DNA from: a virus
Direction: 5' to 3' (one strand)
DNA: 62,485 bases
Virus record (IMG/VR): IMGVR_UViG_3300047157_000104
Span: 1 to 62,485 of that record
Both the position numbers and the translations under genes were made by a program. A model generated the notes under the pieces. The model had not been told where the DNA came from. It ran no database searches and worked only from the letters and a program-made list of their open reading frames with translations. This document shows positions 2,227 to 45,466 of the stretch, piece by piece. Every line of letters starts with the position of its first letter. The first letter of the stretch is position 1.

Positions 2227-5200
2227 TTAGGCGCGCGGAATATCTATACCCAAACCTTTCATAAACGCGTGTATAGCACTTTCCGAAGCGACTGGTCTAG
2301 CGGTTAGAATAAATATATTGTTATTACCAAATTTATCTATTGCTTTTTGTATTCTTGGAATTAGTGGTCCGGGCTGACCTTTAACCACTTTGTTAAATTC
2401 ACTAAAATCAAACTCAGCTCCTTCAGCTAATAATGTTTCACCTTGTTTAGCGAACTGCGCTGCATTTATTTTAAATGTTTTATCATCTTTTTTGACTATG
2501 ATCTGGCTCTTACTAAACGCTAACGTGTCGTCAAAGTCATATACGCTTATGCCCTTTGGATTTTCAGAGTAAGATCTTTTGCGTGCGTTATTTAAAGCTT
2601 TCTGTTGAATCTTATTTTTATTAGCTTTTGCTATTGCTCCTACTTGCAAATTAGAATTAAACTTAACCCAGCCTTCACCAAATATTTCGCCAACATTTTC
2701 ACCGCCAAGTTTTTCTAAAGCAAATATGTTTTTTCCACCTAGTGTTCCTTTGTTATAATACCTGTAAGTTTGGTGGAGCTGACCTAATATGTAATTTATA
2801 GGCATAGTAGACTTAAACTGAACATTTATATTCTTGTCCATAATCTTAGGTACGATGCCTACGGTGTAAGATTCCTTTAATGCATCTAAGTCTACTTTTT
2901 TGTTCCAAAAATGATTAGTAAGTTCAATCATCATATGGTTAGTTGGCACCATATGCTCGTAGACTAGCTCTCCTTTGTAATCTCCTACAAAATAATACTC
3001 TACATTAGCTGCAGCTTTTAGCATGGTTTTCATATTGCTATCTAAGCTTTTCATAGTAGAGACCCAAAGCAGAGGATCATTTTTGCTTTTAATAAAAGTC
3101 AAGTAATCTATCATGAAATCAAAAGCTGCGTCTGCTTCTTTTTTTCTATAATCAAAATCTTCTATAAATTCTGCCTTAGTGCCTTTAACAGTTTGACTCG
3201 GCTGTTTAACTTTTTCATTAAAACTTTCAATAGCTTTTCCATTATATTTAACGCTTGTTATTTTTAATTTACCACCCTCCGGTATTGTATATGTTATTTC
3301 TATATTAGAGTGTGTGTTGAAAACGTTGTCTATAAGATCCTTTAGACCAGAAAAATATTGCGCTCTTTTTCCACCAACAACATAAGCGGTTGCGGTGTGA
3401 CCTTTCATAAACTTAAATGCGTTTATAAAACCAGACTCACCTCCTTCATCTATTAATTTATGAGTATACTCTTGCGTTGTAGCTCTATTGGCTTCTTGCA
3501 CACCACGATCATCAGATATATTAACAAATTTTCCATCAAAAACTTCATCGAAAGTTTCAGCGAAGCCGGTTATGTTTGCAATATTTTTTTCTCCAGAAGC
3601 TTTTATTTCCTTCTGGTCTATGTGGTTTTTAATGAATCTTGTTAAATCTAGTTGCGTACCAATAGTTTCCCTACTGTCAACGTACTTTTTTAATGAAGCA
3701 GCGTATTCTTTTGCAATTTCTTTTAATTTAGATTCTTCAATACCTTTGTCTTTATAGCCATTTATTATGATTTTTTTAGCACTAGCTTCTGTGAATTTCA
3801 AACCCATCTCTAGCGCTCTAATCTCTTTCATTATTGGACCAACATTTTTACTGTCCACTAATACACTTCGCTCAGCTGCATTAAGAGATATAGATCTTTT
3901 AACGCTACCTCGCTCTGCTTGCTTGCTGAACTCTTGAATATAGTTGTCGAAAAGCTGAGCTCCTAATCTACTTTGATTATCTTTAAAAGCTTCAACTATT
4001 TCACTATTAGGATTTTTAAACTCTTCATTATACACGTCAAAAGCATACTCTTCAGCTAGCGCTTTAGCTAACGCTTCTTTCCTGCCTCTAATAACCTCAT
4101 CGCCTTTAAACATGTAAGTTAAAAACTGCTCATCAGTAATTTTATTAGCAGCGTTAGGTAATCTTCTAACTAGCTGTGCACCTGAAGTTCTACCTGCTTT
4201 GTCAGTACCAACGCTTTCGCGATCTATTTTCTTACCTTCCCAATCAGAAGTGAACTTACCATCAACAGACTTTTGAATAGCAAAAGGCATACCTTGCATA
4301 AGCCAAGTTGTAGTCATGTTTTCAAGTATAGGTTTCTTAAGCTTTAAGAAGTTGTTTCTAAGTTCACCACCACGTTTAGCTCCTAGCATTTTCTTAAACT
4401 CAATATCCGCTTGCTTACCTATTTCTTTTTTAATCTCAGACATTAAAGGCGTAACAGTCTTGTTTATAGACGTTGCAGCGTCGATGCGAGATTTAAGTGT
4501 TTTAGTTATGAGTAGTATCTTGTCTTGTACTTTCGCAACCATTTCGTTTGGTAACACTCTGCTTTCAACTAAGTTCTTATATTCAACCCTTGGAGCTTCT
4601 GTGGTTGTAGTTTCAGCTGCGGGCTCTGCGACTTGTCTAGCTTCTTCTGTGTCTAAGCTTTCAGCTTGTCTTTCAGATTCTATAGCTAATCTTTTCTTAG
4701 CATCTAGCTTACTAAATCTAGCGTTAGCAAACAAAAACTCACCAAAAGTTATAGGATCTCCACTAGCAGTTTTTCTAATAGCTGCTGGATCAAAGTTAAT
4801 TAATCTATCAACAACTCCTTCTAGCGTTATTTCTGCTTCCTCTTTAGACAGTGCTCTAGAGTTAACGTAGTTGTATATAGCTCCGCCTGGTTGAGTTGCG
4901 TTAAATATAGGGTTAAATACTTCTCTACTTTGAAACTCTTCTTTAGTACTAACATTTTTAGGCACTAAGTTGTTTATGTTTTCTAGCAGACTTAAAGATC
5001 TTTTTTCACTTTTATCCTTTTTAAAATCTTTTAAACCTCTTCTTGCTTTCGCAGTTAACTTACCTTTACTTATAGCTTTTTCGTAATCTAATACAAAATC
5101 AAATACTTCTTGGCCAGAGTTAAATTTAAGTTTATCTGCATTAACACCTAGTTTTACAGCTAGTGTTTCAAGAATTTCTTTACCTATCTGAAGCCAAGTT

Positions 5201-42264: not shown

Positions 42265-42501
42265 ATGTCAAATCAAAATTCAATCACAAGCAAACGTTTC
42301 GTAATCAGAAAATCACTAATCGGTAAAAACACTGTAATCAAAGTCGAGTTCAAAAATGGTAAAACATTTGAGTACAATCACGACAAAGCGTTCGAAGTAA
42401 TGAAAGATAAACTCGAAGCGATGAACTGCTGGGAAAAGTACAAATCATACACTTCCAGTACAAGTGTTCCAACTCCACTACGTAACGCAGAAGTTGTGTA
42501 G
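42265..42501 (+). CDS. Early small basic protein, unknown
   Basis: 78 residues, Lys-rich (SKRFVIRKSLIGKNTVIKVE, KNGKTFEYNHDKAF), a small beta/helix pattern possibly for nucleic acid binding. The 3' end may overlap the tRNA-like RNA that follows. No family recognised. Confidence 0.6.
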   Translation: MSNQNSITSKRFVIRKSLIGKNTVIKVEFKNGKTFEYNHDKAFEVMKDKLEAMNCWEKYKSYTSSTSVPTPLRNAEVV

Positions 42502-42569
42502 TGTACACTGGAAACTCTAAATCAAGTTATGTTGGCACTTAAATGTGAGTTCGATTCTCACCATAACTA
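42492..42569 (+). tRNA. Degenerate tRNA-like sequence, possibly tRNA-Asn(GUU)
   Basis: A perfect T arm is present (GTGAG, TTCGATT, CTCAC at 42,545-42,561), followed by acceptor strand CATAACT and A. AGTTGTG at 42,492 pairs with it through one G-U. A 17-base arm at 42,524-42,540 offers anticodon GUU with four of five stem pairs. No normal D stem is seen and no CCA is encoded. Alternatively AGTTATG at 42,525 pairs perfectly with the acceptor strand, giving a minihelix without D and anticodon arms. Confidence 0.4.
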
Positions 42570-42571
42570 CT

Positions 42572-42700
42572 ATGCAAGTAATATTAAACAACTCAAAAGA
42601 AACGATCGACTTCACTCAAGTAATACTAAAACAAATGGCTGGTGAACTAACTCGCGAGCAAGTACAAGAACTAATAAATAAAGCAAGAAATGAAAAATAA
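42572..42700 (+). CDS. 42-residue early peptide
   Basis: A complete small frame (MQVILNNSKETIDFTQVILK), with helical second half ending LINKARNEK. It starts 2 bases after the tRNA-like sequence and stops one base before the next ATG, so it fits the tight micro-gene array. Function unknown. Confidence 0.55.
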   Translation: MQVILNNSKETIDFTQVILKQMAGELTREQVQELINKARNEK

Positions 42701-45183: not shown

Positions 45184-45285
45184 ACCCAGCGAATAAATAA
45201 CAAACCTCGGTAAATTGAATCAAATCAAGGCAAGCGTTCCTTCCTCCGGAATTGTTTCATGAGCAAAGGTAGCAAATGACTGGGT
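45184..45285 (+). ncRNA. Possible structured RNA leader/domain
   Basis: ACCCAG (45,184-45,189) pairs with CTGGGT (45,280-45,285) and encloses further short hairpins (UUCC-UCC-GGAA and AAGG...CCUU). No ORF is supported here. It abuts the tmRNA-like RNA by 4 bases and may be its precursor leader or a separate RNA. Confidence 0.35.
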
Positions 45286-45289
45286 ATAT

Positions 45290-45466
45290 GGGCATAAATG
45301 GATTTTAAATAGCGATTAAAGGCGTAATCCTGACGAGGTGTAATAAGCGGCTCGATGAAGGTTTACTTATCCGTCATAGTGATGACACCCGACCAGGAGG
45401 CAATGAAGCTATGTAGGTAAGTAATAAAGCTATGGTAGGCAGGTTCGATTCCTGCCATGTCCACCA
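45290..45466 (+). ncRNA. tmRNA-like RNA with encoded CCA and G3-U70 pair
   Basis: The 3' end is a textbook tRNA half: GCAGG-TTCGATT-CCTGC T arm, CATGTCC acceptor strand, A73 and CCA. GGGCAT at 45,290 pairs with it as six base pairs, with G3 opposite U70, the alanine-charging signature used by tmRNA. ATAGC (45,309) pairs with GCTAT (45,429) where tmRNA has helix P2, and the D region contains TGGATT without a D stem, as in tmRNA. AAGCTATGTAGGTA before the T arm resembles the conserved tmRNA 3' segment. The insert can form a pseudoknot (TGACG/CGTCA with GGTGT/ACACC). Against it: about 177 nt is short, no tag ending in LAA is visible, and the seventh acceptor pair is A-C. Confidence 0.5.

Follow-up and report, generated by a model that had tools for sequence, protein, structure and literature searches.

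The tmRNA of Mycobacterium phage DS6A is barely more than a tRNA-like domain (TLD) (PMC4131195, PMC11915505), and according to a passage of PMC4131195 that cites Mao 2009, a DS6A-like TLD-only molecule strongly inhibits tmRNA whether or not it is chargeable, perhaps through titration of SmpB. Mitochondrial tmRNA apparently lacks a tag frame but is found together with SmpB, and rescue without tagging has been suggested for it (PMC11915505). Among phages, DS6A was the sole case of an encoded TLD-only tmRNA that our literature search found named.

The window analysed here, a virus record of 62,485 bases taken at its full length, contains a tmRNA-like RNA of 177 nt at 45290..45466 (+), located between co-directional genes; we refer to this RNA and its relatives as mini-tmRNA. 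A reading made from the sequence alone had proposed a stripped or tagless tmRNA at this place, and the T arm, the six acceptor pairs with G3-U70, the P2-like helix (ATAGC/GCTAT) and the stemless D region which it described are all present. The parts of the window copy are as follows.

45290..45466, +: TLD-only (tagless) tmRNA-like RNA, 177 nt; end-to-end match to RF00023 and a family conserved among related phages
45290..45296, +: acceptor stem, 5' strand GGGCATA, with G3 opposite U70 and an A7.C66 mismatch; sequence, and three compensatory pairs against the sisters
45297..45308, +: stemless D-like region AATGGATTTTAA, containing GG; sequence
45309..45313, +: P2-like helix, 5' strand ATAGC; pairing with 45429-45433 and family-wide P2 covariation
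45314..45428, +: long variable arm, replacing both the mRNA-like domain and the anticodon arm; no conserved reading frame
45315..45358, +: recurrent hairpin module M1 (ATTAAAGGC..GGCTCGATGA); recurs among the examined loci
45363..45371, +: inner arm helix, 5' strand TTACTTATC; pairing with 45416-45424, U.G changed to U-A in L038 and L003
45416..45424, +: inner arm helix, 3' strand GGTAAGTAA; sister comparison, present also in the minimum-energy fold
45429..45433, +: P2-like helix, 3' strand GCTAT; family comparison
45439..45455, +: T arm GCAGG-TTCGATT-CCTGC; sequence, RF00023 match and alignment covariation
45456..45462, +: acceptor stem, 3' strand CATGTCC (U70); sister comparison
45463..45466, +: discriminator A and encoded CCA (tail ACCA); sequence

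Of the features of the tmRNA class, the window copy has those of the TLD (G3:U70, stemless D region with GG, T arm, P2) and has no tag frame; a tRNA-like domain with no coding segment is what describes a TLD-only (CDS-less) tmRNA. Neither the D stem nor the anticodon stem-loop of a tRNA (RF00005) was recognised. The acceptor stem holds six pairs, G3:U70 included, plus the A7.C66 mismatch.

Taken by itself, the window copy is ambiguous, with near-equal scores from the tmRNA and tRNA models and unexceptional folding (fold energy 1.5 sd better than shuffles). Covariance models and ARAGORN had been named as checks on the sequence-only reading. The Rfam tmRNA model RF00023 matches 45290-45466 end to end (model positions 1-374; E = 1e-7 for the 601 nt searched, 2.5e-9 for the whole record), but its 23.8 bits lie under the curated gathering score of 47 bits, and the tRNA model RF00005 gives 24.1 bits over 45399-45463, with an alternative 5' end at 45399. 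ARAGORN found nothing in the window copy. No group I intron was matched with Rfam in the region around 45290-45466, and BLAST of the region and of the family consensus against annotated phages returned nothing beyond T-arm or short partial matches.

Comparison with three sister sequences, L039, L038 and L003 (the last two from one contig), separates the two 5' ends. The window copy differs from them on both sides of the acceptor stem at 1:72 (G-C/A-U), 5:68 (A-U/G-C) and 6:67 (U-A/C-G), while the rival 5' strand GGCAATG at 45399 is unchanged across the sisters and does not follow the acceptor changes; the 5' end is therefore 45290, and the tRNA-model start at 45399 is ruled out. Compensatory changes of this kind indicate selection on the RNA. 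The outcome that was to count against a tmRNA, a better fit to an intron-containing tRNA and no tmRNA match, did not arise, as a tmRNA match exists and the sisters leave the tRNA 5' end unsupported. The observation of a tmRNA-like sequence at 45290-45466 is confirmed.

Related viral records were collected through similarity of the DNA ligase gene (n = 47), and 32 of these have tmRNA-model matches, mostly 76-190 nt in length, the weakest spanning the T arm only. Most of the matches sit about 2-2.7 kb upstream of the DNA ligase gene, the same place across records. An exact DNA pattern for the T arm and acceptor identified 93 stretches in viral contigs, which with other copies brings the total to about 100 distinct RNAs; this mini-tmRNA family is previously unannotated. 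Members, many of them just 71-90 nt long, combine an acceptor stem of 7 bp and a T arm with a D region that contains GG but no stem, and with a single hypervariable yet paired hairpin arm, in a constant plan of acceptor GGGCGUG/CACGUCC, AAAUGGUUAG, paired hairpin arm, AAC, T arm and ACUA; neither an anticodon nor a tag is present in the members compared. The GG lies at RNA nt 12-13 in 26 of 31 syntenic copies and at 11-12 in the window clade. The encoded CCA noted in the sequence-only reading is genuine in the window copy but exceptional in the family, since the 3' tail is ACTA in 26 of the 31 syntenic copies; CTA instead of the expected CCA is also the usual tail of other tRNA-like RNAs in these phages. 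Four bacterial genome contigs contain family members, one of which is probably a phage contig, encoding a protein that by eye resembles a neighbour in the window.

In a trimmed alignment of 27 sequences all 17 pairs hold, with a covariation of 0.508 against 0.111 in shuffles, and the P2, acceptor and T stems covary; the P2 score is inflated because sequences were chosen for five P2 bases pairing in one register, although members with other P2 registers pair too. In the members compared, tmRNA-model scores exceed those of the tRNA model by roughly 8 to 28 bits (for example, 42.6 versus 14.5 and 40.2 versus 29.0 bits), and the most tmRNA-like members (L052, L198, L202 and L203) reach 62-66 bits at 81-83 nt, above the RF00023 cut-off. 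The copy in L203, at 3104-3186 (+), is a TLD-only tmRNA of 62.1 bits on a phage contig with ordinary tRNAs, apparently unrelated to the window group. These matches, the family of relatives and the arm with no conserved frame support the idea of a stripped or tagless tmRNA.

The G3:U70 pair is the main identity element of tRNA-Ala. To count it we used the 31 syntenic copies, which were picked independently of the DNA pattern, because counts of G3:U70 among pattern-derived sequences are biased by the pattern itself; the records do not count as independent events. Of these copies, 27 have G.U at 3:70, two have G-C and two A-U, and the acceptor stem has a single other wobble, the remaining positions being almost always Watson-Crick. 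The alanine signature proposed from the sequence thus holds for most of the family but fails in the nearest relatives of the window copy, which have G3-C70; two other records have A3-U70. Judged from these pairs, alanine charging is plausible for most members but is not maintained in the clade to which the window copy belongs, and given the loss of G3:U70 in the closest relatives it is not obligatory. Four loci (L148, L164, L166 and L173) have two mini-tmRNA-like RNAs each, one of which is often G3-C70 or A3-U70.

Arm length ranges from about 23 to 140 nt, and the sequence varies between members while pairing is maintained. In the window arm about 56 nt are present that are missing from L038 and L003, and the segment AAGCTATGTAGGTA, offered earlier as tmRNA-like, is the 3' strand of an arm helix and is altered in the sisters (AAGCTACGCGGATA), so it adds no support; nor does the possible pseudoknot of that reading. 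Recurrent hairpin modules nest within the arms and also stand alone between genes (for example, in L172, L087 and L136); module M1 has 21 distinct copies among the examined loci and none in a reversed-sequence control. Directly upstream of the mini-tmRNA, at 45184-45284 (+), is a hairpin ACCCAG..CTGGGT with a recurrent module (GCGAATAAATAAC..CAAATG), the module's inner part swapped in sister phages. Comparing frames across the window and its sisters revealed no conserved reading frame in the arm: the single long open frame of the window is common to L039, and its stop is lost in L038 and L003, which rules out a hidden tag (open frame ending ...GNEAM*). Members of 71-90 nt are too short for a tag reading frame, and the short members have no segment able to hold the pseudoknots PK1-PK4. 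A further element of the window, at 42525-42572 (+), is a tRNA-like minihelix of 48 nt (AGTTATG-TTGGCACTTAAAT-T arm-CATAACT-ACTA), which L003 and L038 carry unchanged and which overlaps a 30-bit tRNA-model match at 42492-42569; L016 and L021 have 50-nt elements resembling it.

Phages of Flavobacterium, Cellulophaga and Maribacter have the structural proteins nearest to that of the window, whose other genes include those for GroEL, ribonucleotide reductase, DNA ligase and a primase-helicase; from this likeness and gene content, a marine Bacteroidota host is probable. Among isolates, the related Cellulophaga phages phi38:1 and Calle have a full-length tmRNA of 362 nt with the tag AQIEANMEAVNAILNLEVAVGV (ARAGORN), and the shared 5' end sequence retrieves tagged full-length tmRNA in more than 20 viral contigs. 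In Maribacter phage Panino (PP540027.1, 27557-27889) an annotated SsrA overlaps tRNA annotations, and the permuted tmRNA model scores 62.2 bits. Going by shared TLD sequence and ACUA tails, mini-tmRNA most likely derives from a phage-borne full-length tmRNA, and loss of the coding domain within this phage group is the simplest history because full-length tagged tmRNA exists in relatives. No integrase (PF00589) was matched in 48 IMG/VR records, which rules out an integration-site (attP) copy of a host tmRNA or tRNA gene. Genes for SmpB or an RF-1-domain factor were found in none of 53 phage records, so any protein partner would be host-derived.

Given a TLD plan with neither anticodon nor tag, members above the Rfam cut-off and full-length tagged relatives, we interpret mini-tmRNA as a TLD-only tmRNA; that it arose from full-length phage tmRNA and competes with host tmRNA for SmpB we judge to have an even chance of being right. 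From the comparison, the ancestral phage tmRNA would have lost its tag-coding, pseudoknotted part, and a variable hairpin arm would have come to close the molecule. Host RNase P probably trims the transcript, which would also be given a CCA end, as happens with tRNA and tmRNA; the processed RNA is then likely to bind host SmpB, with alanine charging possible in members that keep G3:U70. With no frame to translate, the RNA would compete against host tmRNA, leaving less trans-translation during infection, and may in this way jam or redirect host ribosome rescue. We prefer such a decoy because, in the account given in that passage of PMC4131195, a DS6A-like molecule inhibits irrespective of charging, which fits a G3:U70 that is usual and dispensable. 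The lack of integrase and of SmpB or RF-1-domain genes, in the 48 and 53 records respectively, also counts in its favour; against it stand the window copy, under the Rfam cut-off and tied with the tRNA model at 24.1 bits, and the fact that a pure decoy requires neither the G3:U70 kept in 27 of 31 copies nor diversification of the arm.

That conservation of G3:U70, with other acceptor positions almost always Watson-Crick, would be accounted for if the alanine-charged RNA entered stalled ribosomes with host SmpB, took over the nascent chain and aided recycling without tagging, for which the mitochondrial tmRNA seemingly without a tag frame, co-occurring with SmpB, is a precedent (PMC11915505). 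We think such tagless rescue unlikely, as the pair is replaced by G3-C70 in the window's sisters and A3-U70 in two other records, the phages encode no RF-1-domain factor, and without a resume codon the ribosome would stay blocked. Arm diversification is the strength of another unlikely reading, in which the tRNA-like frame protects and matures an arm that holds the function, such as the binding of some factor from the host or a rival phage: the arms differ yet stay paired on a constant frame, and they are made of nested modules that also occur alone. The same variation could also reflect drift of the arm or a landing site for mobile hairpins, and the frame retains tmRNA-specific features superfluous for a mere scaffold. 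In its stronger form, with the tmRNA-like frame a carrier or RNA display scaffold for swapped, nested modules that perhaps evade or bind host or rival-phage factors, we consider the proposal rather doubtful.

The position between co-directional genes, and the minihelices of 48-50 nt elsewhere in these phages, would suit an acceptor/T minihelix that serves as an RNase P and RNase Z cleavage site between genes and has no role of its own; this seems quite improbable, since it leaves G3:U70, the GG at fixed distance and the paired arm unexplained. An ordinary tRNA, highly diverged or containing an intron, or a decaying pseudogene, is suggested by the tied tRNA score of the window copy and by its A7.C66 mismatch. 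We give this very little credence: neither D stem nor anticodon stem-loop is recognised in the family, members of 71-80 nt are too short for an intron, and the compensatory acceptor changes speak of selection.

Canonical tRNA-Ala (RF00005) shares the acceptor G3:U70 and T arm with mini-tmRNA, whereas the family has no recognised D stem or anticodon stem-loop, and RF00005 scores lower than the tmRNA model for the family members compared, with a tie for the window copy. The full-length tmRNA of phi38:1 and Calle has in common the stemless D region with GG, the T arm, P2 and G3:U70, as well as the ACUA tail of most family members, and differs in its 362 nt and its tag. The CDS-less tmRNA of jakobid mitochondria and Mallomonadaceae plastids has, like mini-tmRNA, kept the TLD and lost the reading frame; it differs in being organellar, with mitochondrial genes usually permuted and SmpB nuclear-encoded (PMC11915505). 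The DS6A tmRNA is TLD-only like mini-tmRNA as far as its published description goes, but is a single known case from an actinobacterial phage, whereas the window family is large, with a long, modular and hypervariable arm. A large TLD-only clade, which ARAGORN overlooked in those copies it was run on and most of which falls under the Rfam cut-off, stands where the literature found had one phage case. It suggests that phages repeatedly convert a host ribosome-rescue RNA into something else, and supplies many natural variants for asking whether alanine charging is needed; its modular, nested arms are unusual in their own right and, if the display reading were true, tmRNA would have been converted into an RNA display scaffold.
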